From positions 1 to 43,654 of the forward strand of contig JAMPHJ010000011.1 in the NCBI GenBank assembly GCA_023663465.1: a stretch of 43,654 bases of DNA, given 5' to 3'. The number at the start of each line of letters is the position of its first letter. The first letter of the stretch is position 1. The stretch is from Muribaculaceae bacterium (lineage in GTDB: Bacteria > Bacillota > Clostridia > Lachnospirales > Lachnospiraceae). A program made the position numbers and the translations under genes. Shown here piece after piece: positions 164 to 37,315 of this stretch. The notes below the pieces were generated by a model that was not told the DNA's origin, ran no database searches, and saw nothing but the letters and a program-made list of their open reading frames with translations.

Positions 164-512
164 AAATACTATCACAGAATCTGCACGTTTGTAAACCCAG
201 TGCAAAATTTGACGAAAATATTGCAATTTTTGTTCTCTTTCTATATAATATTTATGATAAAATTATATTTTCAACTCTTTTATCATCTTTTACAATTATC
301 ATCTTCTATAATAGGAAGGGAAAATTGCACAAATGTTCATGAAACTAGCACACAAAGAAAACTTTAAAAAAGTCATATGCCGAAGTCAATGCAGGCAAAT
401 ATTTTGCGCTCTTTTTCACCCCCCCCCTAACAAAAAATATATCCTTCACTGCCCAAATCCCTGCCTAAGATGCGGGAATACCGACTAATCATTACTTAAA
501 GGAGATAACATC
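164..512. other. 349-bp leader region upstream of the first chemoreceptor
   Basis: This AT-rich gap holds a good sigma-A-like promoter (221-249), a second isolated TATAAT at 307-312, and a run of nine C at 419-427. An AAAGGAG ribosome site lies about eight bases before the ATG at 513. I found no convincing flagellar sigma (TAAA-N15-GCCGATAA) promoter and no open frame worth calling. Confidence 0.6.
221..249 (+). promoter_or_regulatory. Candidate sigma-A promoter for the chemoreceptor gene
   Basis: TTGCAA at 221-226 and TATAAT at 244-249 are separated by 17 bases. Transcription from here would give a leader of about 255 bases that contains the C9 tract. This is a sequence match only. Confidence 0.55.
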
Positions 513-1994
513 ATGAATCCAGAAGTTTTAAAAAGCGAAGAAAAAAGAATGAATCTCATTATGTTTGCATTCTACCTTGTGATACCGGTTGTTGCGTTTT
601 TGTTTGTATTATTTTTCAATGGCGGTTCTATGAAAGACAGCATCGCCCTGATTATGATCGTACTTAGCATACTGATTAAGATATTCGAGAAACCGCTTGG
701 AAAATATGCGAAATATCTGTATGTTTCCATTATGCCGGTAATCGGGGCAGTCATCATTGTTGCGGGCACTCCCGGCGTCTTTGCCGCGATGGTGGAAGCT
801 TATTTTCTCGTACTGATTTTAACGATTCCTTACTATGATTTATCCGTTGTCATCGTATATTCGGCGGTTCTCATCATCTCAAACTTAGCTACCATGCTAA
901 TCTTCCCGGAGCCGTTCCTTGTCATGGACCCCATCCCTATCTGGGTATTTATCGTTATGGTCTATGCACTTGCCGTCATGGTGGCAGTTTTGATTGTTAC
1001 AAGAGCACACACGTTATTTATTGCGGTTGAGACCAAAGAGCAGGAAACGGAAGAAGTGCTTGAAAACGTGCGCACCGCTTTTGAGAGTATGCAGGCATCT
1101 TCCAGTGAAATCTATGACGCCTTACATAACTTTGAAGCCAGCGCGACAGAAATCGCTGCCTCCACCGAGGAAATTTCCAAAAGCGCTGACCAGCAGATTC
1201 AGCAGGTACAGGGAAGTCTTGATATCTTTGGCGATTTGAACGATAAAATTGCAAGCTCTGAAGACCGCGCCATCCAGACAATCGAAAACATCCAAAAATT
1301 AAAGGATAAAAATGAGCAAGGCATCGCTTCGATTACGGAACTTTCTGAGAAATTCCGGGAAAATACCGAAGCCACCAAAACGGCTTCCGAGGGCGTCACC
1401 TTACTGGCGCAGAAATCAAATTCCATCGGTGAAATCATCGAAAGCATCAGTCAGATTGCCAGACAGACCAATCTGCTTGCACTCAATGCAGCGATTGAGG
1501 CGGCAAGAGCAGGGGAAGCCGGAAAAGGGTTTGCAGTCGTAGCGGACGAAATTAACTCCTTATCCTCAGAATCCTCTGACGCAACCAAGAAGATTGATAC
1601 GATTCTACAGGATGTCCTCTCTACGGTATCCGAAATCAACGGCGTCATGGATCATAACAACGTGATTGTAAGCGAATCCAGCGCCAAGTTAAACGACACC
1701 GTCGAAATTTTTGACGCCATCCTGCATTCGTCGGAAGAGGTTATCGAAATTATCAACCTGCTCAAAGAGGAGCTGGACCATATCGTCGCTATCAAAGAGC
1801 AGCTCTCAACCGCCATGCAAAGCGTGGAAGATATTTCCCAGAAGTCCGTGGAAAATACGAAAGAAATCAACGCCTCCACAGAAGCGCAGGCAGTGGGCAT
1901 GGAAGCGATTATGAAGACAATGGAAAATGTACAAAGCAGTATGAGTAAACTTGCTGCTGTACTGAATGTCGAAATGCAGACTGTATCAAAATAA
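513..1994 (+). CDS. Methyl-accepting chemotaxis protein with multi-pass membrane N-terminus
   Basis: 493 residues. Residues about 15-180 contain roughly six hydrophobic helices with no obvious extracellular sensor domain, followed directly by a long coiled-coil MCP signalling domain. The conserved hairpin tip lies at about residues 311-350, with the [20 protein letters not shown] signature and FAVVADEI after it. Proteins of this class form arrays with CheA and CheW and control flagellar direction. The polytopic N-terminus suggests it senses a membrane-associated cue or the energy state rather than a ligand bound by a 4HB or Cache domain. No classical HAMP is evident. An AAAGGAG site supports the start. 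The gene stands alone and ends at a bidirectional terminator. Family call firm; ligand unknown. Confidence 0.93.
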
Positions 1995-23683: not shown

Positions 23684-26032
23684 TTATCCGGGAAATTTCC
23701 CATGTCTGACTGCCTTTCTGCATTGCCTATAAATATCCCGCATAAACTGCACATCTTCCTCGCGCGTCTTCTTTTTGCCATAGGCGGAAGCCAGCGCCAT
23801 GCCTACGATTTCGCGCGCCTGTTTCTTCGTCATGTCCGGCAGGACTTTTCTGAGCCAGCGGCTAAACTCCGGCGACGTCGAGCGTACCTCACCGGGCATT
23901 CCCGCCTTCTGCAGCGTTTCGTGGACGAGGCAGAATAAGGATAATAACCTGTCATTGGCGCTTTGCCCCCTGCCATATCCATGTCTGTCCAATCCCTTTA
24001 AGACCTTCCGCCATAGCAGGATAGCCAGGATGACGATAGCAGAGAAAATCGCAAAACCGCCCAGATACAGACGGACTTTCGCATAGATTGGCTGTTCTTC
24101 CGGCGCCTCTTCCTCGTCCTCTTCCTCTAAAAGGGACTCCTCTGCCTGTTCCTCAGCCTGTTCTTCTTCCTGCTGCAACGCTTCCTCTTCCTCCTTGGAA
24201 AGCTCGATATTCCGCAATACGCCGATATTGCCCGGCGTACATTCCACCGGAACCCAGCCGATGCCTTCCAGATAGATTTCCGCCCACGCATGGGCGTTGT
24301 CCGACTGTAAAAGCGCAGTGTAATTTCCTTCTGCGTCCATGCTAAAGAGGCTTTCCGGCACGGCATACCCGGTCACATAGCGGGCGGGCACGCCGAACAT
24401 ACGGAACATCAGCGTCGCTGCGGAAGCAAAATGGGCGCTGTACCCCTCTTTCGATTCGTAAAGAAAATACTGCACGAAATCCTTGCCCTCCGGCAGCCGC
24501 GGCACTTCCAGACGATAACGGCAGTTACGCACCAGAAAGGTTTCCACATAGCGGATGATTCCTTCGATGTCGTCTTCCCCGATATCCTGCGCCAGACACT
24601 CTTCCTGCAGCTGTCCGAAACCCTCTGGCACCGCCAGATAATTCTGCTTCACATATGCGCCATATTCCGATTCCGCACGGTCTAATATTTCTTCCTCTTC
24701 TTCTTCGGGGCGCGCCTGCATGGTTTCTATGTAGAGCTGCAGCGGAAAATAGGAAATCTCATCCGCCGCCACGCTCTGGCTCCGGATACTGCCATCGCCC
24801 TGACTGATTTCATAATAGTCGTTCAGATAAGCACAGTAAGGCACAAACGTGTACTGACCGCCGGCGTTGATGTTCTCTATCGACAAAACGCCCATCCCCG
24901 TTTCCACACCCTCCCGCGTTTCCCGGTATATCTGCCGCAGGAAAGGAAGATTCTGGATATAAGTCCGCGGTTTATCCTCCGTATGCCAGTAAATCGCCGC
25001 ATAGTCAAACTGCTCTTCCGGCAGCTCCGCCCATTTATCCCCCTCATAGATGCTTCCGATATAGCCTTTCAGATAAAGGGTCTCTTTCGGCTCTATCGTA
25101 GAGGTCACAAGCAAATCGTCCAGGTTGGTCAATGCATATCCCGCCACATCGCCCAGCGCACCATCCGACGCCCCGCCGCCGGCTGTCTGCACCTGCAGTT
25201 TCCATTTGCCCGCTGAAATCACCGGAAGGTACTCCACCGCCACCGCGACTACCCTGTTCTGCAAATGCGCCCCCCACTTCTGGAAAGCCGGAATCTTCGC
25301 CGGTAACAGCGGCATGAAGACATAGAGACTGATGCACGATGCAAAAAGCACACCCAATGCCGCAACACACGCGGCTTTCTTCTGCACCGACTCCAGGCAG
25401 CGCCTATTTTTATCCCCCTCCGCGCCATTGGCTATATGGTTCCCACGCAGGGCGTATTCCTGCGCGATACAGCCCACGAAATGCAGCAAAAGCAGCGACA
25501 GGGAAATATTGTTTACCTTCCGCCCCATTAACAGGATGACCATGAGTACGGGAAATTCGATGAGAAAAATAGGCAGCAAATCCACCTTCCCTATCGTGGC
25601 AAAAGCCAGAATCAATACCACTACGCAGATAACAAGTGCAAAAAACAGCGTAAGGGCGCCTTTTCCCAGCAGAAACTCCCCCGCCATATCCTGCGTTTCA
25701 TAGCGCAGATAAAAAGAGGCTTTCATCCCCTGTACACAATCCAGAAAGCCCTGTTTCACAAAACTGCCATTGGTCGCCGCGAACAAAACCACGATTCCTA
25801 TGCCCGCGCCGTAAACATACTGCTTATATTTCCTAGGAATATTGATAGAAAAAAACAAAACAAGCGCAAACGTCAGCACGCCTGTTTCCACATACAGCGC
25901 CCATTCGTAACAGGGATAAGAAAAAGCTGAAAAAAAACCGGTGACTACTCCCTCCGTCCCCATCAGCAGCAGGAAGAAGTCGATTAGGAAACAGCTTATC
26001 GGCGAAAGGCACTTTCCCTCCCGCTGCATCAT
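23684..26032 (-). CDS. TgpA-like transglutaminase-core membrane protein with Ser at the Cys position
   Basis: 782 residues from the ATG ATG pair at 26027-26032, 25 bp after the DUF58 stop; the frame is open to 26134. The N-terminal part (to about 245) has six or so membrane helices, followed by a large outside region with a transglutaminase-like core and one late helix, then a cytoplasmic tail. The core reads KEGYSAHFASAATLMF, then VPARYVTGY, then NAHAWAEIYLEGIGWVPVE. His is present; the usual GYC nucleophile is Ser (AGC, 24437-24439). An acidic Glu-rich stretch precedes the last helix. It forms the common MoxR-DUF58-TgpA set, thought to act in envelope assembly. Start is uncertain. Confidence 0.85.
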   Translation of the reverse strand: MMQREGKCLSPISCFLIDFFLLLMGTEGVVTGFFSAFSYPCYEWALYVETGVLTFALVLFFSINIPRKYKQYVYGAGIGIVVLFAATNGSFVKQGFLDCVQGMKASFYLRYETQDMAGEFLLGKGALTLFFALVICVVVLILAFATIGKVDLLPIFLIEFPVLMVILLMGRKVNNISLSLLLLHFVGCIAQEYALRGNHIANGAEGDKNRRCLESVQKKAACVAALGVLFASCISLYVFMPLLPAKIPAFQKWGAHLQNRVVAVAVEYLPVISAGKWKLQVQTAGGGASDGALGDVAGYALTNLDDLLVTSTIEPKETLYLKGYIGSIYEGDKWAELPEEQFDYAAIYWHTEDKPRTYIQNLPFLRQIYRETREGVETGMGVLSIENINAGGQYTFVPYCAYLNDYYEISQGDGSIRSQSVAADEISYFPLQLYIETMQARPEEEEEEILDRAESEYGAYVKQNYLAVPEGFGQLQEECLAQDIGEDDIEGIIRYVETFLVRNCRYRLEVPRLPEGKDFVQYFLYESKEGYSAHFASAATLMFRMFGVPARYVTGYAVPESLFSMDAEGNYTALLQSDNAHAWAEIYLEGIGWVPVECTPGNIGVLRNIELSKEEEEALQQEEEQAEEQAEESLLEEEDEEEAPEEQPIYAKVRLYLGGFAIFSAIVILAILLWRKVLKGLDRHGYGRGQSANDRLLSLFCLVHETLQKAGMPGEVRSTSPEFSRWLRKVLPDMTKKQAREIVGMALASAYGKKKTREEDVQFMRDIYRQCRKAVRHGKFPG

Positions 26033-26057
26033 CTGCCGCTTGCCGGGCAGTATCCCG

Positions 26058-27080
26058 CTATTGCGTTTCTTCGCTTTCCTTCCAGCAGACTTTCCCGTCC
26101 AAATCCATCCAGACGGCGTGAAGCTTTGTCTCATCGATGTCCTTCTCCTTCGTCCATGCGCTCTCTACGGCTCTCTTGCACACTGCCGCGCCTGTCAGTA
26201 TCATCTGATATTCCGTAAATTTCTCTTCATTTTCTATGTAAAAAATCACTCTTTCACCATCCCTGTCCCATATCGCATAATGGGACACCCCCCATTGCAG
26301 GATTTCCCAGGACAGGGAAGACGCCTTATCCAGAAAAACGTCCAGCTCTTCCCGCGATAACTCCCTTTCCTTTTCCTTCTGGAAATCCAGCCCGACCATG
26401 ACGCCGCTTTCCGAGGTTTTGAGATATTCGCGCACCAGCAGGATATCCGTTTTCGCCGTCAGCTTCCAATGAATCTGTCGCATATCATCCCCGTTGCGAA
26501 ATTCCCTGATATCGTAGGTCTCGTATACGTCCGCCCCGTATTTTCCTTCAAAATCCCCCATGTTTCCCAGCGTGTCCTCCGTGATGGCATTCACCCAGGG
26601 CAGCACATAGACTTCCTTTTGGATGGAGTCCACCCGGCATCTGCCAGAGAAAATCCCGAAATAATCGCTTACCGTCAGCTTTTCCAGATAAAACCTGACA
26701 ATCCCGCAGTGGCAGGTCTTTAGCTCCGCTTCCAGCCAGACCTCGCCGCCGGCTTCCGCCATTCCCGACAGCTTCATCCTATCCCACACCCCGGAGCCGG
26801 AATCCTCATAACGAATCCACGCCGTTATCCGGGTCACGGGGAGTTTGCCGGTATTTTTCACCTGCACGGGGATACGGATGGAATCGCAGCGGGTCACCAG
26901 ATTCTCGCTAAGCCGGATTCTTCCCTGCAAATGCGTCTTCAAATACAACATCTGCAACAGCAAAAGGACGCCCATGACGATAGAAGCGCCCAATATCAGC
27001 CGCGTATAATCACTTTCCGACATCAGATAAAAAATACTTACAATTCCCAGAAATAAAACAAATATCACTCTATTTTTCAT
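26058..27080 (-). CDS. DUF58 domain protein
   Basis: 340 residues. Two short N-terminal helices (about 4-47) are followed by a beta-rich outside segment and the DUF58 core, YETYDIREFRNGDDMRQIHW then KLTAKTDILLVREY (about 188-222), which is the family signature. These proteins have a von Willebrand A-like fold and appear with MoxR ATPases. The start overlaps the MoxR gene end by 11 bp, so the two are coupled. Confidence 0.92.
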   Translation of the reverse strand: MKNRVIFVLFLGIVSIFYLMSESDYTRLILGASIVMGVLLLLQMLYLKTHLQGRIRLSENLVTRCDSIRIPVQVKNTGKLPVTRITAWIRYEDSGSGVWDRMKLSGMAEAGGEVWLEAELKTCHCGIVRFYLEKLTVSDYFGIFSGRCRVDSIQKEVYVLPWVNAITEDTLGNMGDFEGKYGADVYETYDIREFRNGDDMRQIHWKLTAKTDILLVREYLKTSESGVMVGLDFQKEKERELSREELDVFLDKASSLSWEILQWGVSHYAIWDRDGERVIFYIENEEKFTEYQMILTGAAVCKRAVESAWTKEKDIDETKLHAVWMDLDGKVCWKESEETQ

Positions 27081-28017
27081 ACTTATCTTCCGGTCTCGGC
27101 ATCCTGACCTGATGCAGGATTTCTTCTATGACCTGTCCTGCGCTTACCTGCCCCATCCTGCTCTGGTGCGCCATCTTCAACCTGTGCCTTGCCACGTCTG
27201 GAAAGATTTCCCGCACATCTTCCGGGATGACGAAATCCCTTCCCCCCAGATACGCCGCCGCCCTTGCCATCCTCGCTACGGCGATAGAGCCTCTGGTACT
27301 CAGTCCCAGCTGAATCTGCTCATGATTCCTCGTGGCATCTGACAATTCGATGATATAGTCCATGATTCTGTCATGGATAAAAACAGATTTTACTTTTTCC
27401 TGCATACGCATCAGTTCCTGTTTCGTAGCCACTGCCTCGATGCTCTCTAAGATTCCTTCCCGCTCCCAGTCCCGCAAAATACTTTTCTCATCCTCTTTTT
27501 CCAGATATCCCATAACGATACAAATCAGAAACCTGTCAAGCTGGGATTCGGGTAACATCTGCGTACCCGTAGCGCCCACCGGATTCTCTGTGGCAATGAC
27601 AAAAAAAGGCTGCGGAACCGGGCGGTTTACACCGTCCACTGTCACGGCATACTCTTCCATCACTTCCAACAACGCCGACTGCGTTTTCGCAGAAGTACGG
27701 TTAATCTCATCCGCCAGCAGCACGTTGCACATGACGGCTCCCTCGTGATACTGGAAACTTCCGCTTTCCCTATCATAAGAGGAAAAACCCGTAATATCCG
27801 AGGGCAGCAAATCCGGCGTAAACTGCACACGGTTCTGCGCAAGCCCCATCGCCCTTGCAACCGCAAGCGCAAGGGTCGTTTTCCCTACTCCCGGAATATC
27901 TTCTATCAGGATATGCCCCTGGGCAAGCGCCGCCATCATGACCTTTCGGATACACTCGTCTTTTCCTATGACAGCCCGCCCTATTTCCTTCATAATCAAA
28001 TCTATTTTCCGCGCCAT
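27070..28017 (-). CDS. MoxR family AAA ATPase
   Basis: 315 residues. Walker A is GVGKTTLA (about 43-50), Walker B LLADEINR, sensor-like FFVIATENPVG and SQLDRF; the C-terminal lid ends in the helical region with LSTRGSIAVARMARAAAY. MoxR ATPases act as chaperones for VWA-type partners, here the DUF58 protein encoded next. A GAAAGGAATC site precedes the ATG. It lies downstream of the sortase genes behind a 33-bp tandem repeat and may share the pilus transcript. Confidence 0.95.
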   Translation of the reverse strand: MARKIDLIMKEIGRAVIGKDECIRKVMMAALAQGHILIEDIPGVGKTTLALAVARAMGLAQNRVQFTPDLLPSDITGFSSYDRESGSFQYHEGAVMCNVLLADEINRTSAKTQSALLEVMEEYAVTVDGVNRPVPQPFFVIATENPVGATGTQMLPESQLDRFLICIVMGYLEKEDEKSILRDWEREGILESIEAVATKQELMRMQEKVKSVFIHDRIMDYIIELSDATRNHEQIQLGLSTRGSIAVARMARAAAYLGGRDFVIPEDVREIFPDVARHRLKMAHQSRMGQVSAGQVIEEILHQVRMPRPEDKYEK

Positions 28018-28034
28018 CTATTATGATTCCTTTC

Positions 28035-28127
28035 TCATGCGTCTTCTTCTTTACTCCTCATGCCTTCCCTTGCGTCCTCTTTCTTACTCCTCATGCCTTC
28101 CCTTGCGTCTTCTTCCTTACTCCTCAT
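28035..28127 (-). CDS. Possible 30-residue repeat-encoded peptide
   Basis: An ATG at 28127, inside the sortase stop region, opens a frame of 30 codons ending at a TGA 17 bases before the MoxR start. It reads MRSKEEDAREG-type units three times because it lies on the 33-bp tandem repeat. It may serve only to carry ribosomes from the sortase gene to MoxR, or be chance. Kept as a low-confidence call. Confidence 0.2.
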   Translation of the reverse strand: MRSKEEDAREGMRSKKEDAREGMRSKEEDA

Positions 28128-28137
28128 GCCTTCCCTT
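28039..28137. repeat. Three 33-bp tandem repeats
   Basis: Units 28039-28071, 28072-28104 and 28105-28137 are near identical, each beginning GCGTC and ending CATGCCTTCCCTT on the plus strand. The last unit contains the stop codon of the upstream sortase gene. The unit length is a multiple of three. There are no spacers, so it is not a CRISPR array. Confidence 0.9.
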
Positions 28138-29151
28138 CTCGCGTTTCTTTCCCCGCCTTGTGCGCACCAGCCCGGAAATCTCGCTGACGCAGAAATAGAG
28201 CAGAATCGCCATTCCGGCAGCAAGTCCATACTTTTCCAAGAGAATCTGCATTTCCGAGTAATGGACGCCCGTCGCGTCTAAGAGTTCGTCCGCCACCGGC
28301 GCAATCTCTTCCCGGACTTCTGTCCTTGTTTCCTCTACTTCCTGCAAATCCGCTTCCCGGCTCCTTATCCCTTCGTTAGAGCGGTATGCCTTGACCAGAT
28401 AACGGTGCGAGTTTTTCGTATAAGGATGGCAGGTCAGAAGCGTGATACAGTCCTCTCCCTGCCCGATTAACACCTTATCAATTTCATCCGGGAGAATCAC
28501 CTGAATATCCGCCACCCTGTAAATCAAGGTGTCAAAAGGCGTAACCACCTGAATCTTATCCCCTGTCTGCAGCAGCTGGATATTCCGAAACATCGGCGTC
28601 GCGCCGCCGCCCCTGTGCGCGGCGACGACCGTATTGGTATCTTCGCCCCCGATGGGCATAGAGGTCTGTCCCAGAACCGCCGCCCCTTTTTTCAGATTCT
28701 CCTGGGAAGCCCCTAGATACAGGGGAAGCTCCACTTCCATCGCCGGAATCCACAAGACCCCGATGATATTATCCCGCAGTCCATACTCCGCCAAATCAAA
28801 ACTGCTATCCTCATAGGAAAAAGCGTCTTTTAACCCCGACTGCCTTTCCTGCCAGATTTGCTCATTATATGCCCGCATATCCCGATAAAGCCGGTCTAAG
28901 GGCGACTCCTGCGCTTCCCCAGAAGACGGCGCCCCGCTCTCTCTGGCGTCTTCCTCTGCGCCCTCATCCGTCTGCTTCTCTGCGCTTTCTTCTGCACGTC
29001 CCGCCCTGTAAGCTTCCGCCGTCTTCTCAAATTCCCGGATGGCGGTTTTTCTTTCATATTGCCCATACAGAAGGCTTGCCTGTGGATACATGCAGATACA
29101 TGCCCCCAGAAGGATGACAAGTAAAGATAACACCCGTAATGTTTTCCGCAT
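28117..29151 (-). CDS. Class C (pilus-type) sortase, second copy
   Basis: 344 residues from the ATG at 29151, which overlaps the stop of the first sortase gene by one base (TGATG). An N-terminal helix (about 7-27) is followed by an acidic linker (50-90), the sortase barrel, and a second helix near 310-330 with a short basic tail. Catalytic residues are H179 (AAHRGG), C241 (TLLTCHPY) and R250 (NSHRYLV). Two-helix topology is typical of class C pilin polymerases. Compared with the first copy it has a longer linker and H in place of T after the Cys. It may attach the tip protein or the pilus base. The stop lies in a tandem repeat. Confidence 0.92.
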   Translation of the reverse strand: MRKTLRVLSLLVILLGACICMYPQASLLYGQYERKTAIREFEKTAEAYRAGRAEESAEKQTDEGAEEDARESGAPSSGEAQESPLDRLYRDMRAYNEQIWQERQSGLKDAFSYEDSSFDLAEYGLRDNIIGVLWIPAMEVELPLYLGASQENLKKGAAVLGQTSMPIGGEDTNTVVAAHRGGGATPMFRNIQLLQTGDKIQVVTPFDTLIYRVADIQVILPDEIDKVLIGQGEDCITLLTCHPYTKNSHRYLVKAYRSNEGIRSREADLQEVEETRTEVREEIAPVADELLDATGVHYSEMQILLEKYGLAAGMAILLYFCVSEISGLVRTRRGKKREKGRHEE

Positions 29152-30104
29152 CACTTTTCGTTTCCTTTGTTTCCTTTCTGCTTCCTCTGCCGCGCTTTTC
29201 TCTTCTCTTTTCTGTCCTTCTCTTTCCTGTCCTTCGCTCCGGCTCCCTGTTTCTGCTTCGCTGCAATCCGTTTCAGCAGAAACAGCATCATCACAAACTC
29301 CACGCCGATGACGAAAATCACCGCCGCAAGCAGGATGGGCCACACGTCGATCACCCTTTTTACAACCATTCCGGTACTAAAGCCCCGGTATCCATCCTCC
29401 GCGCTTTCTACTTCCTCTTCCCCGGTATAAGGCACCCTTATCCCCCTGAGAATCAGCCGGTGGGAATTAATGGCATACGGAGTGCAGGTAACGAGGGAGC
29501 AATAATCTTTTCCCCCAATTACTTTCAAATTGCTCGTATCGTCCGGCTCCACCACCCTAATCTGGTCTACCTGATATGCCAGCGTCTCGTCCAAAACATG
29601 CAGGTAAAACTTATCCCCCCGCTCCATCTTGTCCAAATCGGTAAAAAGCGCGGCGTTTGGCAGTCCTCTATGCCCCGTCAGGACGCTGTGCGTCCCCTCG
29701 CCCCCTAAAGGAAAGGAAGTCTGCTCGATATAACCTACCCCTTTAGAAAGCGCGTCCGCACTTGTTCCATAATAAATAGGAAGATTTACATCTATCTTAG
29801 GAATCGTAATATATCCGAGCGCGCTTCCGACGTCCAGCATATCCAGATAACTCGTGCCCTCCCCGCGCCACTGCCCGCTCTCGTCCTTGAACACCGCCGC
29901 CTGCAACTGGCTGTTGTATTGCTTCGCCGCTTCCTTGATGGCGTCGATTTCTTCCCGCTCCAGATTCGTTATCTCTTCTTCGTATTCCTCGATAACCTTA
30001 GAAGCGTTGCGGTTGTACAGCAGATTACTGAAAAAAGGATACATCGCAATCGCAAAACCGGATAGTATCATCAGAAGTGCGCACGCTCTTTTTATCTTGT
30101 CCAT
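29151..30104 (-). CDS. Class C (pilus-type) sortase, first copy
   Basis: 317 residues. Helix 1 (about 8-29), coiled linker (37-65), barrel, helix 2 (about 255-277), then a 38-residue cytoplasmic tail rich in Lys, Arg and Glu (KDRKEKDRKEKRKARQRKQK). Catalytic residues are H145 (TGHRGLP), C207 (LVTCTPY) and R216 (NSHRLIL). I see no DPW/DPF lid motif in the linker. It lies 21 bp after the pilin gene and is the likely polymerase of that pilin. Confidence 0.94.
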   Translation of the reverse strand: MDKIKRACALLMILSGFAIAMYPFFSNLLYNRNASKVIEEYEEEITNLEREEIDAIKEAAKQYNSQLQAAVFKDESGQWRGEGTSYLDMLDVGSALGYITIPKIDVNLPIYYGTSADALSKGVGYIEQTSFPLGGEGTHSVLTGHRGLPNAALFTDLDKMERGDKFYLHVLDETLAYQVDQIRVVEPDDTSNLKVIGGKDYCSLVTCTPYAINSHRLILRGIRVPYTGEEEVESAEDGYRGFSTGMVVKRVIDVWPILLAAVIFVIGVEFVMMLFLLKRIAAKQKQGAGAKDRKEKDRKEKRKARQRKQKGNKGNEK

Positions 30105-30125: not shown

Positions 30126-32327
30126 TTATTCGCTTTCGGGCTTTTTCTTCGTTTTCTTGAAAAGAAGGATTCCCGCAATCATGACCATACAGCCAACCAC
30201 CGCAAACACAAATCCGCCCATACCGCCAGTGGTCGGCAGGGTGAAGCCTTTGGTGTTTAGGATGGTGATTTCATCTATTACTGAAGCAGTACCTTTATTC
30301 ACTGCTATTTTCTGTGTTATTGTCGTATTATCACCGTCAATCTCGTGTTTGATATAAATATAATTGCCTTTATCATCTTTAGAATCATAATCATCTTTAT
30401 AAACGATAGAATATTCTGCACTTAATACCACTTCTACCGGTTTCGATAACAGGTTGTAACCGTCGTTTGTCTTGGTTTCCACAAGATAATAGGTTCCGCT
30501 TTTAAGCCCTTTGACGGAAATTTTTCCATTATTATCTGTCGTTAGGGAATCATTACCATTTATCTTTTTCCAGTATTTTTTGTCAGCATCTGAACCAATA
30601 TCCAGACCAGCCGCTTTTGCAAGCTCATCAGCCACTTTCTCGGCATCACCCTCCGTAGTTTCTTGGTACAAGTCAAAGGTAACTCCGATCAGCCCTTTGT
30701 TAGTTCCATCTTCGTTCTTTTCCTCCCCTTCTTTCACAATATCTAACTGGAAGGTGTAAACTACTGCGGTATCTTCAATCTTATCCTCCGGATCACCGGG
30801 ATCCTCCGGATAATCGCCAGGCTCTGTTTCCGGCTTAGCATATCGGGAATAAATAAGTTGTACGGTATTGGTATTTCCCGCATTCACTATTCCATTCACG
30901 TTGACCGCACCCTCTTGCAGTACGGCGTCATAGGTGATATAAATGTTCTCACCTGCCTTACCTATAATCGTAGCGCTTTTTGTATTAAAGGTAACAGTGA
31001 AACCGTTGGTTGACTCATCTTCGGTCAAAGTATAATTTGTGATCGCACCAGTGACAGCTTCTATCTTATCAGTATCTGCAGTTCCCATTTTTCCATCCTT
31101 TTCTTGATATACTTTTAAAGTTTCTGTTGTATATTTAATATGGTTCGGCGTATCCGTTACCTTAAACGTCTTCAAATTTGCAATATTTTCTGGAACCGTT
31201 ACTTTAATCTGGTAGGAAATCGTGTCGCCGACGCTGTAATCTGCATTCTGAACCCAGTCTTCTTTTCCATTTCCGTCTTTACCTTTTACTTTTTTTTCCA
31301 CATTGGGCTTCTCATTGGTTACGGTAATGGTTGCAGAACCTGTAATCGCATCCACCGTGATATAATCCTTGCCTGCATCTTTAATTGTCCCGTTAGGATT
31401 GACCTCAAATTCATAGGTCTTAGAGAAGTCACCAATATAACCGAAATTATCTCCGATATTTGTTTCGATAAGTCGATAAGTTCCAGGCGGTAATGCAGAT
31501 ATCTTAATTTCTCCATCCGTGTTGGTCGTTAAAGCCACTGCCTTACCACTATCATCCGTTATCGTTACCCCTTCCCATGTGTCGTCTGCTTTTTTACGCT
31601 GTAACACAAAGGTAACTCCTGCCAGTTTCTCTTCGCCACTGCCCTTTTTAATCAATGTCACATCTTTTCCATAGGTGGTAGCATTCTTAGGGAATACATG
31701 AACGTCATAGAGCCAGCTGTTATAATCTACCGTAGTAGGAATGGATACCAAAAATGCGCTTTTCTTCGTAACCTGCGACGGAGCGTCCGTTTCCACGACC
31801 AGATAAATTCCTATGGGAAGATTAGAAAACGTCACTTCTCCGTTTTCATTTGTTTTCGCTGAATCTCCCTGTTTAGTAAGAGTACCATCCGGCATACCCG
31901 ACTGCCATTTTCCATTATTAGTATCCCAATAAATTGCCAGAGTAGGCATCTTATCTGCATTTTCATCTGCAGCCGGAGTTCCATTATAGATTTCTTCCAA
32001 TTCACTAGCATTTTTTACCTGATAAATCGTAAATTCCACATCTTCCAATGGTTTATTTTTTGCCTCTGCTGGCACATCATCGCCTGGTTTACCGGTTCCC
32101 CGAATCCCGTCGTCTCCATTATACTCATATTTATGAATCGTAATACTCCCAGTCTTATTCTGCTCTATACCATCAATAACCTCCGTAAACTCAATCGCCG
32201 GAGCCGCCTCTACCGTCCCTCCAGGCAGCAGCGCCCCCACGATAACCATCCACGCCATCAAAAGCAGTCCTATTGCTGTCCGGGCGCAGCCCTTTGTCCT
32301 ATCCTTTTTCTTCATATTGGTAATCAT
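30126..32327 (-). CDS. LPXTG isopeptide-type backbone pilin
   Basis: 733 residues from the ATG at 32327, which overlaps the adhesin stop as ATGA. An ATG at 32315 is an alternative because AAGGAG lies 13 bases before it. Features in order: signal peptide (to about 43), SpaA/Cna-B-like domains with E-boxes (IYLVVETD, YRLIETN, YYLVETK), a pilin motif VHVFPKN near 209-215 whose Lys (K214) accepts the sortase bond, and a late LPTTG (697-701) with membrane helix and basic tail. Sortase-joined subunits of this kind form the pilus shaft. An A8 run lies at 31290-31297 in the codons for EKK. It follows the tip gene and precedes two sortases. Confidence 0.93.
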   Translation of the reverse strand: MITNMKKKDRTKGCARTAIGLLLMAWMVIVGALLPGGTVEAAPAIEFTEVIDGIEQNKTGSITIHKYEYNGDDGIRGTGKPGDDVPAEAKNKPLEDVEFTIYQVKNASELEEIYNGTPAADENADKMPTLAIYWDTNNGKWQSGMPDGTLTKQGDSAKTNENGEVTFSNLPIGIYLVVETDAPSQVTKKSAFLVSIPTTVDYNSWLYDVHVFPKNATTYGKDVTLIKKGSGEEKLAGVTFVLQRKKADDTWEGVTITDDSGKAVALTTNTDGEIKISALPPGTYRLIETNIGDNFGYIGDFSKTYEFEVNPNGTIKDAGKDYITVDAITGSATITVTNEKPNVEKKVKGKDGNGKEDWVQNADYSVGDTISYQIKVTVPENIANLKTFKVTDTPNHIKYTTETLKVYQEKDGKMGTADTDKIEAVTGAITNYTLTEDESTNGFTVTFNTKSATIIGKAGENIYITYDAVLQEGAVNVNGIVNAGNTNTVQLIYSRYAKPETEPGDYPEDPGDPEDKIEDTAVVYTFQLDIVKEGEEKNEDGTNKGLIGVTFDLYQETTEGDAEKVADELAKAAGLDIGSDADKKYWKKINGNDSLTTDNNGKISVKGLKSGTYYLVETKTNDGYNLLSKPVEVVLSAEYSIVYKDDYDSKDDKGNYIYIKHEIDGDNTTITQKIAVNKGTASVIDEITILNTKGFTLPTTGGMGGFVFAVVGCMVMIAGILLFKKTKKKPESE

Positions 32328-35300
32328 ACTCCTTTCTTTCGCCTCCATTTTCTTCTGGGTTTCCGTTTTCTTCTGGATTCCTTTTTTCTTCTCGGTTCCT
32401 TTTTCCTTCTCGGTTCCCGCTTTCTTCCGGGTTCCTTTTTTCTTCTCCGTTTCTTCTTCCGTTCGGGTTTTTGTTTGCTTGCGACCTTTTTCTTCCGCTT
32501 GGGTTCCTGTTCTTGTCCGGTTTTTTTCTTCCGCTCAGGCTCTTGCTCTTTTCCGGGTTCCTTCTTCCAGTAATGCCGGCCGGTGAAATATAAGCCGCAG
32601 CCTGCAAGCGATAAAAACTCCGCCCCCAGAATATAGAGCACCAGGTTTCCTCCCGTGGCCGGAAGCATCAACAACCCCTGATTGGAAATCGTAAGGGTTA
32701 TGAACATCTTGCCGCTTCTTTCCTCTATCGTTAACGCTTTGCCTTCCGCGGTACTTTGGCCCGCACGGTTTATCACCAGCTCTATCGGTTTTGCCAACAG
32801 ACTGTAATTATCGATGGTTTTCGTCTCCGTCAATCGATAATGCCCATCTGGCAAATCCTCAAACAATGCCTTGCCGCCCTCACCTGTTATCACTTCCCGG
32901 TCGCCAAAAGTATCGTCTTTCTTCCACTTTTCTCCATCTTTGACGTAACGCTCCAGTTGAAGCGTAACCCCTTCCATCTCTTTGGGTGGGTCATCGCCGG
33001 ATACTTTCGTAACTTCCAGATTGGTCAGCGGGTTATAAGTATTGGTAATGTTATATTCTATCTGCTCTCCCTCTTCGTTTTCTGTCACGCTTGCGGTGCC
33101 GCCGGATGCCAGGTAGCACGAATGGTTTTCCTGATAAACCAGCTTTTCGGAATTGTCTGCTTCTTTTACATCTTGGCTTATCACATCAAATTCCCTTGCT
33201 CCCGTTACGATTTTCGTTTCCACGAAGCGGTATTCATACTTCCGCCTTCTTCCCGCGTCGCTCTTTCCATAGAGGGGCAGACCTTCCACATGATACGCCC
33301 AGCCTTTTGTTTCTATCGTAATGATATTGCCGTCGGTGCATTGCAGCGTCCGGGTTTTCGTGTCTGGCTCTCCCTCATCCGGCGGTTTTGTTAAAAGAAT
33401 CTCTACCACGGCTTCCTGGGATGGCGCCTCCGGCAGGTCTGTCTTTTGATAATATTCCACATCCTGAAATTCATATGTTACGCCACTCGCACTATCTCCT
33501 CCAGCCTGCAGGAATCTGCGCTGTAGTTTCAACGTGACGCTCTGTGCCTGTGGCGCCGCGCCCAGATGGGTATTCTTATCGCCCAACTCCCATAGCTTCT
33601 CTCCGCCCATTTCCGCCATCTCTATGACAGGATTGATATCGTTTTCAACCACGATTTTATCTACAATTTCCTCGCCTTCGTCTGCGATAATCGTGCCGCG
33701 ATAGCATTTCTTGGCGGCGTCAAACTCGCCCGTATCGTTTCCGCCACCTACTTGATACATTTTCGAGAGGGAGAAGTCGTCCCTTTCCAGTCCGGCGTTC
33801 AGTAAGGGGAAATCATCACCCGCCGTCTGGATTTCCTCGACGCGGTACTCCGTCCCTGCCGGGATTCCCGTAATCGTAAATACGGACTGACCCGACTCTA
33901 AGAAAATATCCTGCTGCATGACGACTTCCTGGTCGGATTCATACTCCCCATAATCGTTGACGCTTCCTTCAAGGTACATACCCCCCACATTGGAAAAAGT
34001 AACCCGGATGGTATAGGGAATCTCTACATCAATCAGATTATTCTGGTCTATCAAGCTGCCTTCCGACACTTTCACCTGTTTCCTGATTTCCAGGGAACCG
34101 GTTTTGATGGTATTGGTATACTTTAATTTCAAATCGAAATATTGGGTATCGCTTGCCCCTTCCTCATAAGTCCGGAAAAGGATGGTATTTACATTGGTCG
34201 GTTTACTGATATCATCAGGGTCCGTTAGGCTCGTGTCACTTTTCCTTCCATCTTCTGCGCCGGTTCCTGAACCCTGCCGCACCGTCCTGCCGCTTTCCGA
34301 CAATGTCCACGTCACATCGAAAACGTTTTCGTCGCACTCTTCCTGAATCATGAGATAACTGTTGCGTCTGAATTGGTCAGAAAAGATTGCCGACTGGTCA
34401 TCTTTTAGATAAATGCGCCCGGATTCTACATAATAGTCCTTACCGCCCATACTGTATTTCGCGCCGTTTATCGGCTCTAACCCCCGTGTATCATAGGAGC
34501 CGTAGTCCGGTATCTTGTCCTGTTCTTTTTCAAAACCGCTGTCTTCCAGATAGATTGGCGGCGCATTCAGCGTGATATTGTCGATGTACACCGGTTTATC
34601 GTCCCAATAGGCAAATTGAAGACTTTTGATATTTGTATATTGAAACTCCCCGCTTTCCGAACCGTCGAGTTTCTTCAATTTCTGCATCTGGGAAAGATAG
34701 ATTCTGAGACTGGTCCAGCTTCCTGACTGCATCAGACCGCGGGTTCCCACAACCGTCGATTCATTCGCCCACACGCCGATGCGGTTTCCTGCCCCGTCGA
34801 TTAACGCCACGAAAGGAGCCCCCGCGCCCGTCGCCGCATCCAGATAAGCGTCCAGTTCCAGATATCCGTCCTGCATCACCCTCGTGGCAGCAGAAGCGTC
34901 CAGATTCCCGACGCCAATATTTTGCAACAGAAAAGAACGGCCATCCGTAACATCCTGCCCGTCTGTATATTTTTTCTCGCCCGGATACCGGTATTTCAGC
35001 ACACAGTCCCTGCTGCCATCGCTATTCCCCGGAATATCCGCTGTTACAAGCGCTAATTCGGAACCATCCGCCGACTGGATAAACTGCCCTACAGGCGTCG
35101 ATGAAGTAATCTTATCGTAATCCCATTTTAATGCCTCATTCGCAGTCTGGATATCAAAAGCAAGCCCGCTTGTAATCATATTCCGCATGGCGATGGGGAA
35201 GCTTACCTCCGTCTTTAACCTTGTCATGGCTTCCTCAAACTCTTCATTGACCAGACTCTGCCCATCCGCCCCGGTGGTAACAACCTCTTTTTCGACTTCC

Positions 35301-37198
35301 AGATTGTTGGTTTTGGGGAAGTTAAAGGAAATATACATATTGGATTCCCAGAGACCGCGCTCCATATAAAACATGGTCAGTACATGTTGCTTGGAAGAAT
35401 CCAGCTTCTCAAAAGGGTCTGTAAAGGTTCCTTTGCCTGTTGACCTGCATCCTGTCGTAACTGCCTCGCACTTGGCAAAATTGATGCTTCCATCTACCGC
35501 GCCATGATCTCCGCCGATGTCCAGTATCAGATTTCCGTCGATAAATACCCAGATATCGTCGTCGCCCCTGAAAGTAAATTCGATATCCTTCTCGACAATC
35601 TCATCCCCCTGCTTTACCTTTACCATACCATTTGCCGTCATATAGAAAGGAATATCCAGTCTCATACCGAAGGCATAGTTTAATCTGGTGGGTTTTCCAG
35701 TTTCTGAGTTGTCATTAAATGGGAAAAAATTACTTTGCTCAGTCGCAACATATGCCGTATGTCCATGAACGCTGTTGGCAGCGCCCACCCTGTCCAGAAA
35801 ATATTTGCCTTCCTCCGTCTGCTTCATACGCAGCGTCTGGGCTGCATCATAGCTTTCAAACTCCCAGTACCCCGTCGCCGTATCCTTTACAAAAGGAAAC
35901 GAGATGTTTTCAAACACATACCCGATGTTTGTCTGTAAAGAGTTATCACCCCGCAGAAACTGTTTATTAAAATAGGGCGCTTCTACCCCCTTGCCGTCGT
36001 TGTCCGTACCCATCATCAGCTTGTCGCCGATTAATTGGCTGTTAACCAGACCCAGGCGGGCGCCTTGATTATCACTTCCATTATTGTTATCAAACTTAAA
36101 ATTCAGTAATCCGTTGAAGTAAGCGTCAGCCTTGGTAAATTCCCCGAAATACAGGGGCGACTGCCAGCTGCTCGTAGCCAGCGACGTATCCCGGAAATAG
36201 GCGGCGATTGCCTCATTAAACTTCTTCGCCTGTATTCTATGGCTGCTTCCGTCGCCGCCCATGTTATCGTCCGAAACCGTCTTCCGGTTCTTCCCTTCCA
36301 GCTCCAAGTCAGAATAATAATCATAAAAGGTGGAATTGACATACCAGATTCCATCCTCTTTCTTAAATTCGCCCTGCGGGATATTCAGGCTCGTATCCGC
36401 AATACTGCTGCCTGGTTCTAACAATTCCAGTGTTCTTAGGGTATTTGCTTCATAGCCGCCTACTATCGCCGTGAGAAAAATACCCCCCCCCGATGAATTT
36501 TCGCTATCACCGAGGGCGGCAGTTATTTTCTCACTATCTAAAACCTCTGTTTTATTCGCAACATTCGTGGTTCCTGTTTCCTCTATATAAAACCCGTCAT
36601 AGTCCGAAGACTCCAAATCAAAGAGCAGCGTCCCATCCGAGGGCAGAGCTTCCGTCTCTACCCATGTATTTCCTTTTACATAACAGACTGACGCCCCTCC
36701 CGTAAAATCATGCTTAATGAAAATCGGAACGCCAAAATACAGCGGGCGCACTGAACCTGTCCAGCCGCCGTACTTTACGGCAAAAGAGCTTCCATAGACG
36801 CCCTTCTTGGCAATCAGCGTCTCAGTAGTTACCGGCTCGGTTGTATTGCCTGGCTGGCTATCACCCACTTTTTTAATATAAAAACTATCATACTCCGTAC
36901 TATCCAGATCATACACGAAATTTCCCACCGCAGTCCCGATGGAAACCGTACTTACATAAGTATAAGCATCTCCCTCTGCATCTTTTTTTTGCAGAATCAC
37001 TTCCGCGCCGCCCCCATCAAAATCATGGACAACTCGTATTGTGACCTTCCCGTTTTTCTCATCCGCCCGGACGCTCTGGGGCGCAATTCCCCGCTTCATG
37101 GCGCTATCCGGCATTCCTATCATGACTGACAGAGCAAGTATCAAAAGGAATATGGCGAACAGACGCTTCGTGAGACTCTTTTCTTTCGCTTCGTTCAT
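32324..37198 (-). CDS. Large pilus tip/ancillary adhesin with fibro-slime, Cna-B-like domains and LPATG
   Basis: 1,624 residues. Signal peptide (about 10-45), then two related N-terminal modules (about 50-130 and 158-228; shared HDF-GG and DL-S--YD-FYI patterns). A fibro-slime/PA14-like domain covers about 400-630 (GDDDIWVFIDGNLILDIGGD), a beta-rich binding-like region about 640-915, and Cna-B/SpaA-like repeats to about 1510. LPATG is at 1512-1516, followed by a helix and about 84 basic residues. These parts suggest a sortase-attached adhesin at the pilus tip. The codons for SGGG (237-239) hold a G9 tract, and 70-72 an A8 tract. A one-base change in G9 gives an early stop either way. It is the first gene of the pilus operon. 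Confidence 0.9.
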   Translation of the reverse strand: MNEAKEKSLTKRLFAIFLLILALSVMIGMPDSAMKRGIAPQSVRADEKNGKVTIRVVHDFDGGGAEVILQKKDAEGDAYTYVSTVSIGTAVGNFVYDLDSTEYDSFYIKKVGDSQPGNTTEPVTTETLIAKKGVYGSSFAVKYGGWTGSVRPLYFGVPIFIKHDFTGGASVCYVKGNTWVETEALPSDGTLLFDLESSDYDGFYIEETGTTNVANKTEVLDSEKITAALGDSENSSGGGIFLTAIVGGYEANTLRTLELLEPGSSIADTSLNIPQGEFKKEDGIWYVNSTFYDYYSDLELEGKNRKTVSDDNMGGDGSSHRIQAKKFNEAIAAYFRDTSLATSSWQSPLYFGEFTKADAYFNGLLNFKFDNNNGSDNQGARLGLVNSQLIGDKLMMGTDNDGKGVEAPYFNKQFLRGDNSLQTNIGYVFENISFPFVKDTATGYWEFESYDAAQTLRMKQTEEGKYFLDRVGAANSVHGHTAYVATEQSNFFPFNDNSETGKPTRLNYAFGMRLDIPFYMTANGMVKVKQGDEIVEKDIEFTFRGDDDIWVFIDGNLILDIGGDHGAVDGSINFAKCEAVTTGCRSTGKGTFTDPFEKLDSSKQHVLTMFYMERGLWESNMYISFNFPKTNNLEVEKEVVTTGADGQSLVNEEFEEAMTRLKTEVSFPIAMRNMITSGLAFDIQTANEALKWDYDKITSSTPVGQFIQSADGSELALVTADIPGNSDGSRDCVLKYRYPGEKKYTDGQDVTDGRSFLLQNIGVGNLDASAATRVMQDGYLELDAYLDAATGAGAPFVALIDGAGNRIGVWANESTVVGTRGLMQSGSWTSLRIYLSQMQKLKKLDGSESGEFQYTNIKSLQFAYWDDKPVYIDNITLNAPPIYLEDSGFEKEQDKIPDYGSYDTRGLEPINGAKYSMGGKDYYVESGRIYLKDDQSAIFSDQFRRNSYLMIQEECDENVFDVTWTLSESGRTVRQGSGTGAEDGRKSDTSLTDPDDISKPTNVNTILFRTYEEGASDTQYFDLKLKYTNTIKTGSLEIRKQVKVSEGSLIDQNNLIDVEIPYTIRVTFSNVGGMYLEGSVNDYGEYESDQEVVMQQDIFLESGQSVFTITGIPAGTEYRVEEIQTAGDDFPLLNAGLERDDFSLSKMYQVGGGNDTGEFDAAKKCYRGTIIADEGEEIVDKIVVENDINPVIEMAEMGGEKLWELGDKNTHLGAAPQAQSVTLKLQRRFLQAGGDSASGVTYEFQDVEYYQKTDLPEAPSQEAVVEILLTKPPDEGEPDTKTRTLQCTDGNIITIETKGWAYHVEGLPLYGKSDAGRRRKYEYRFVETKIVTGAREFDVISQDVKEADNSEKLVYQENHSCYLASGGTASVTENEEGEQIEYNITNTYNPLTNLEVTKVSGDDPPKEMEGVTLQLERYVKDGEKWKKDDTFGDREVITGEGGKALFEDLPDGHYRLTETKTIDNYSLLAKPIELVINRAGQSTAEGKALTIEERSGKMFITLTISNQGLLMLPATGGNLVLYILGAEFLSLAGCGLYFTGRHYWKKEPGKEQEPERKKKTGQEQEPKRKKKVASKQKPERKKKRRRKKEPGRKREPRRKKEPRRKKESRRKRKPRRKWRRKKGV
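32330..32560. repeat. Degenerate purine/pyrimidine repeat encoding the basic tail
   Basis: The plus strand is almost wholly pyrimidine-rich, made of imperfect units of about 18-27 bases such as GGTTCCTTTTTTCTTCTC. In the minus-strand reading frame these give KEPRRK-type hexapeptides. The regular units explain the extra length of the adhesin tail. Confidence 0.75.
36483..36491. repeat. Homopolymer tract G9/C9 inside the adhesin gene
   Basis: Nine C on the plus strand (nine G in the coding strand) span the end of codon 236 to codon 239. Loss of one G leads to TAG after nine further codons, gain of one G leads to TGA after about fourteen, so either change truncates the protein near residue 245-250 without its sorting signal. 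Confidence 0.9.
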
Positions 37199-37286: not shown

Positions 37287-37315
37287 ATTATAAAACGGTT
37301 TACTTGTCAAGTCAA
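37287..37315 (-). promoter_or_regulatory. Near-consensus promoter of the pilus operon
   Basis: Minus strand TTGACT (37310-37315), 17-base spacer, TATAAT (37287-37292). The leader to the ATG at 37198 is about 80 bases. A terminator for the upstream chemoreceptor gene lies just before, so this is an independent unit. Confidence 0.8.

Follow-up and report, generated by a model that had tools for sequence, protein, structure and literature searches.

A G tract in the first gene of a sortase pilus operon

Blautia is a common gut commensal, and the window analyzed here is a stretch of 43,654 nucleotides from a Blautia draft genome of 3.15 Mb. On its minus strand lies a gene for a surface adhesin of 1,624 amino acids ending in LPATG (32324..37198), followed by genes for a SpaH/EbpB-family LPXTG major pilin (30126..32348; NF033902; 740 amino acids counted from the first ATG) and for two class C (pilus) sortases of 317 (29151..30104) and 408 (28117..29343) amino acids, both matching NF033745 above cut-off. 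The succession of adhesin, pilin, and two class C sortases marks the locus as a sortase-assembled pilus operon with the adhesin as its first gene, and the class C sortase genes adjoin the LPXTG pilin, as is expected of operons of this type. Upstream of the adhesin start, by approximately 90 to 117 bases, is a sigma-A-like promoter on the same strand (TTGACT and TATAAT spaced by 17 bases, 37287..37315), a candidate identified solely by its consensus match at 11 of 12 bases; five promoter-like sites were found, compared with a mean of 1.6 in shuffled sequences. Past the sortases and on the same strand, positions 23684-28017 hold genes for a MoxR-type ATPase, a DUF58 protein, and a transglutaminase-domain protein.

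The adhesin begins with a hydrophobic segment, read by eye as an export signal, and carries a fibro-slime domain at residues 537-624 (TIGR02148, scoring 53.6 bits where the cut-off is 45) together with Pfam matches to DUF7601 (residues 1034-1131) and SpaA (residues 1393-1482). No vWA domain was among its Pfam matches, and a sequence search of the PDB returned a SpaA-like domain as the sole match. From operon order, protein size, and the fibro-slime domain, we infer a tip position for the adhesin. Approximately 90 Lys/Arg-rich residues (32333-32568), coded by imperfect tandem repeats of 18, 36, and 54 bases, follow the LPATG motif and membrane helix, which is long for the tail of a sorting signal. 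An alternative pilin start, ATGA at 32327, sits directly behind AAAGGAG and overlaps the adhesin stop codon, so translational coupling may link the pilin to the adhesin; the choice of this pilin start over the first ATG is likewise a reading of the sequence.

Nine consecutive Gs lie within the adhesin frame and leave it open. The tract (36483..36491) is C9 on the plus strand and G9 on the coding minus strand, beginning at the third base of codon 236 and ending at the second base of codon 239 (TCG GGG GGG GGT, Ser-Gly-Gly-Gly), and nine is thus the in-frame (ON) length in the assembly. Removing one G yields a product of 244 amino acids ending at TAG (36463..36465, minus strand), whereas adding one G or removing two yields products of 249 and 248 amino acids, respectively, both ending at TGA (36450..36452, minus strand; the positions of both stops were derived by hand from the slipped translations). 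The fibro-slime domain, DUF7601, SpaA, and LPATG all lie downstream of the tract. The initial annotation had placed the G9 across codons 236-239 of a 1,624-residue adhesin, which the window sequence and open reading frame bear out. It had also predicted a TAG nine codons after the loss of one G and a TGA approximately fourteen codons after the gain of one, ending the product near residue 250 without the fibro-slime domain or LPATG; these predictions are correct when codons are counted from 236, and both the domain and the sorting motif lie past the stops.

The adhesin gene accordingly has a long coding mononucleotide tract at which indels truncate the product, an anatomy that fits phase variation by simple repeats. 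Moreover, the position of the tract in the first gene of the operon, between the export signal (by eye) and the LPXTG motif, reproduces a layout described in Bifidobacterium. Counted against phase variation was its location at codon 236, which is further into the gene than several other tracts are in theirs. The second G9 run of the window (419-427, minus strand) lies outside any frame of at least 100 codons, some 85 bases ahead of a gene for methyl-accepting chemotaxis (513-1994, plus strand), and the sister species, a close relative, also has G9 there (L061).

Long G runs in the window and the genome

Synonymous chance would give the same nine Gs if a Gly-Gly-Gly loop behind TCG simply drew the codons GGG GGG GGT, with a slightly faster mutation rate and no selected switching. 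We consider this explanation unlikely overall, although it is the alternative that survives best, and codon usage in the window lends it support. GGG accounts for 240 of the 1,030 glycine codons in window genes, and synonymous resampling of the adhesin produced a run of at least nine in 232 of 4,000 draws (5.8%). Similarly, the window contains two G9 runs and four windows of eight consecutive Gs, where dinucleotide shuffles averaged 2.76 and 32 of 100 reached four; this difference is not significant. Taken by itself, a single G9 is weak evidence and hardly beyond chance.

Across both strands of the genome, exact run counts were 200 for G6, 19 for G7, 12 for G8, 16 for G9, two for G10, and one for G11. 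Counts therefore drop tenfold from G6 to G7, continue to fall to G8, and climb again at nine, a shape that runs counter to the chance explanation. Extrapolating the drop between G6 and G7 gives an expectation of 0.19 runs of nine or more, where 19 were seen, while a model of independent, identically distributed bases expects 8.9 exact G9 runs, a figure similar in order of magnitude to the observed 16; both nulls are crude. The raw number of G9 runs in the genome is not large, but the shape of the length distribution, with few G7 and G8, is odd. Among the tracts of at least eight Gs, 28 of 31 are exactly eight or nine long.

Frames broken at G tracts across Blautia

Tracts were classed by whether one long frame continues through them (continuous), two long frames are split at them (split), or they belong to a remaining class (other); positions drawn at random from these loci served as the control for splits. 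All counts follow the stricter of two split rules, as a looser rule based on the longest frame on each side calls more tracts split. In the adhesin-bearing genome, the 19 tracts of at least nine Gs comprised six split, two continuous, and 11 other, and several of the last are intergenic or antisense, which was counted against phase variation; in the sister species (G039), the 22 such tracts comprised nine split, two continuous, and 11 other. Further Blautia genomes contributed 32 tracts in 29 loci, those returned of many more, with seven split, seven continuous, and 18 other. Random positions were split in 3.9% of cases in the adhesin-bearing genome and in 3.9%–5.5% across the three sets. The splits shared a common direction, 20 of 22 having a +1 offset, as if one G were too many.

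Reading the same tracts on the C strand tempers this result. Splits on the C strand numbered two of 19 tracts in the adhesin-bearing genome (six of 19 on the G strand) and five of 22 in the sister species (nine of 22 on the G strand), or 7/41 versus 15/41 when pooled (Fisher p 0.08, paired exact p 0.10). Some of the surplus of splits relative to random positions therefore reflects where tracts are located, which shrinks the apparent link between tracts and broken genes in favor of a chance run, and slightly lowered our confidence that the adhesin tract is phase variable. Tracts of eight Gs behaved differently from longer ones, with seven of 12 in the adhesin-bearing genome and nine of 11 in the sister species continuous, and only 0 of 12 and one of 11, respectively, split. 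In both genomes, then, G8 is usually in frame while G9 is often broken. The adhesin and one other locus (L020) owe their open frame at nine Gs to a final G in the codon ahead of the glycines.

At least two split loci clearly represent one gene broken into two pieces, judging from a profile match and from homologues. The pieces of L005 match positions 47-199 and 214-325 of the Acyl_transf_3 profile, the second piece below the curated cut-off, and the halves of an MBOAT acyltransferase gene at L022 lie in frames 2 and 3 but share one frame in all six of the homologues retrieved from other Blautia. A search of the sister species with L022 matched the first 238 query bases only and did not recover the tract-bearing gene. 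The presence of tracts of at least nine Gs in broken genes of surface type, with these two clearly single genes among them, counts against a chance run. The gene classes look surface related: L001 and L012 encode membrane proteins (L012 with a weak PMT_2 match below cut-off, L001 with no match), L019 has DUF285/BspA-type repeats, and acidic regions of low complexity occur in L018, L019, and L020, with starts resembling signal peptides by eye in L018 and L020. A search with L020 gave no match in the sister species and short N-terminal matches in two other genomes. The sister species adds acyltransferase-like and membrane proteins, and similar protein types occur among 13 loci from other Blautia, all read by eye.

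Tract lengths in the sister species

The adhesin tract in the sister species is the same G9, in frame, within DNA of 95.7% identity, so the length is nine in both of the two genomes that have the tract. This equality is compatible with a chance run. An unchanged G9 in relatives, one of the outcomes that the initial annotation named as refuting its proposal, was thus observed in the sole close relative found, but a single genome at 4-5% divergence says little.

Other tracts do differ. Pairing tracts of at least eight Gs in both genomes by matching flanks, after cross matches from a dispersed repeat (L010, L023, L033, L056, L072, L076) were dropped, gave 14 pairs, of which ten were equal in length (five 8/8 and five 9/9, the adhesin among the latter) and four were not: L007/L073 (10/9), L010b/L076 (9/8), L015/L072 (11/9), and L023/L056 (9/10). 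At L010b, the frame is closed with nine Gs, whereas at its sister counterpart L076 the frame is open with eight Gs from the same start codon, by eye. Ahead of the two tracts the sequences differ further, by substitutions and an indel of three bases, which leaves the single-G difference as the source of the frame change (also by eye); under the stricter rule, L010b was classed as other because of its short upstream part. Elsewhere in the lineage, tracts of the same kind vary in length and in frame, as phase-variable tracts are expected to. The L015 tract occupies the ribosome-binding-site position just ahead of the ATG of a secreted-protein gene, and its G11 (G000:C136) compared with G9 in L072 (G039:C78) could represent translational phase variation through spacing, as opposed to a frameshift. 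A dispersed repeat of approximately 100-140 bases was observed beside L010, L023, L033, L056, and L076, in both sister species.

Long G runs are slippery for polymerases, and slippage could occur in transcription or translation, instead of or beside replication, with stutter or frameshifting producing a mixture of full-length and truncated protein from one genotype. The many splits that are one G off frame could be tolerated if expression leaks through in this manner, but the four of 14 shared tracts that differ between the sister species indicate that lengths do change in the DNA, and we regard this account as improbable. An assembly artefact, by which tract lengths in draft genomes are consensus errors and an apparent OFF G9 may truly be G8, is more doubtful still: both close genomes are draft assemblies (182 contigs for the adhesin-bearing genome, and the sister titled a MAG), a systematic extra G would produce just such a one-sided +1 offset, and annotated tract lengths can differ from those in the population, as cautioned in PMC9187656, but the two assemblies agree on an in-frame adhesin G9, and adding a fixed extra G to G8 does not account for L005 and L007 (both G10) or L015 (G11).

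Age of the adhesin tract

The N-terminal 500 amino acids of the adhesin were matched at E up to 0.001 in three of the 77 genomes searched in Blautia, and at E up to 1e-10 in six of 397 genomes of the family, the adhesin-bearing genome included in both counts. In a homologue with 66% identity (G070), the site reads TCA TCA GGG GGT, a run of five Gs. Runs of at least six Gs are absent from all six homologous loci that were retrieved, although only two of them (L116 and L117) align across the site of the tract. Taken together, the five Gs in G070 and the lack of longer runs in L116 and L117 argue that the adhesin tract is not an old conserved switch, and its absence from farther homologues is also what a chance run would predict. 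The survey of orthologues found no tract-length variation at the adhesin, with the sister species alone sharing the tract, which is known from this pair only and lies in an indel-rich stretch. One of these homologues (L116, in genome G351 of another genus; 59% identical) contains an in-frame TAG in its N-terminal part, with no listable homopolymer.

Phase variation of the adhesin and pilus

Weighing these observations, we conclude that the adhesin G9 is probably a working slipped-strand phase-variable locus, captured here in its ON state. On/off phase variation, as the initial annotation proposed, is partly supported: it is favored by the anatomy of the locus and by the broken genes and length differences at other tracts, while the in-frame G9 of the adhesin in both genomes that carry it weighs against it. 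Under phase variation, the tract would act as a hypermutable contingency tract, with slipped-strand mispairing during replication altering its length. A length of nine, or of nine plus or minus three, would give the full LPATG-bearing adhesin (ON), and other lengths would place a stop at residues 244-249 (OFF), leaving a fragment that would keep the export signal but could be neither anchored nor sorted. Because the adhesin is first in the operon and its stop codon overlaps the likely pilin start, the OFF state should also cut expression of pilin and sortase, and would do so through lost translational coupling and transcriptional polarity, such that the whole pilus may be phase variable. Slippage at the adhesin tract, polarity, adhesive function, and the resulting phenotype are all properties that we infer.

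A close parallel is available in Bifidobacterium breve UCC2003, for which PMC9187656 describes a G tract in the first gene of each of two sortase pilus clusters, bbr_0113 and bbr_1889. In that strain, transcription drops after the early stop (polarity), and electron microscopy revealed pilus-like structures in in-frame strains and not in the parent, although the authors state that they have no direct evidence for the pilus proteins; bbr_0113 is annotated with G11, out of frame, and populations with G11 and G12 were reported (PMC9187656). As in B. breve, the Blautia locus belongs to a Gram-positive gut commensal and has a sortase-dependent pilus cluster with a G tract inside the first gene, where the in-frame length joins export signal to LPXTG and other lengths truncate the product (PMC9187656). 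However, B. breve belongs to another phylum, its tracts follow upstream open reading frames of 24 nt and 197 nt whereas the Blautia G9 is at codon 236 and in frame, and it is in B. breve that length mixtures and pilus-like structures were demonstrated (PMC9187656). Contingency loci with G/C homopolymers in Campylobacter and Neisseria (PMC6321876, PMC5084427) likewise provide many repeat-driven switch genes per genome, surface genes included, but differ from those described here in that Blautia is Gram-positive and 28 of the 31 tracts of at least eight Gs in the adhesin-bearing genome are exactly eight or nine long. The poly(A) tract that reversibly inactivates inlA is the same type of coding-homopolymer frameshift in a surface protein gene, with poly(A) in place of poly(G) (PMC2831843).

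A wider set of G-tract genes in Blautia

The adhesin tract probably belongs to a wider set of G tracts in surface-protein, acyltransferase, and glycosyltransferase-like genes of this Blautia. Exact G9 runs were present in 27 of 31 Blautia genomes, with a maximum of 81 in one. We lean, by little more than an even chance, toward a genus-wide poly-G phasome, in which many species would have tens of G8-G11 tracts switching pili, LPXTG and BspA-type surface proteins, and enzymes for acylation or glycosylation of surface polymers; as a rule, G8 would be ON and G9 OFF, with the adhesin an exception that is ON at nine by virtue of the preceding TCG. A search of open-licence literature found, among the papers listed, none on homopolymer phase variation in Blautia or on phase-variable Blautia pili. 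The wider set of Blautia surface genes broken at G tracts is the more interesting result. If the pilus adhesin and the surface-polymer enzymes do switch stochastically through G-tract slippage, cells of one clone would differ in adhesion, in phage receptors, and in their visibility to the immune system, consensus genomes would misreport some surface genes as broken, and the Bifidobacterium precedent would represent a parallel solution in another phylum.

The distribution of exact G9 runs was uneven among the genomes searched. Five of them (G005, G010, G012, G014, and G018) contain 39-81 each, compared with 0-16 in 23 of the 31, and in G014, G018, and G019, at least three quarters of the exact G9 runs are on one contig strand.
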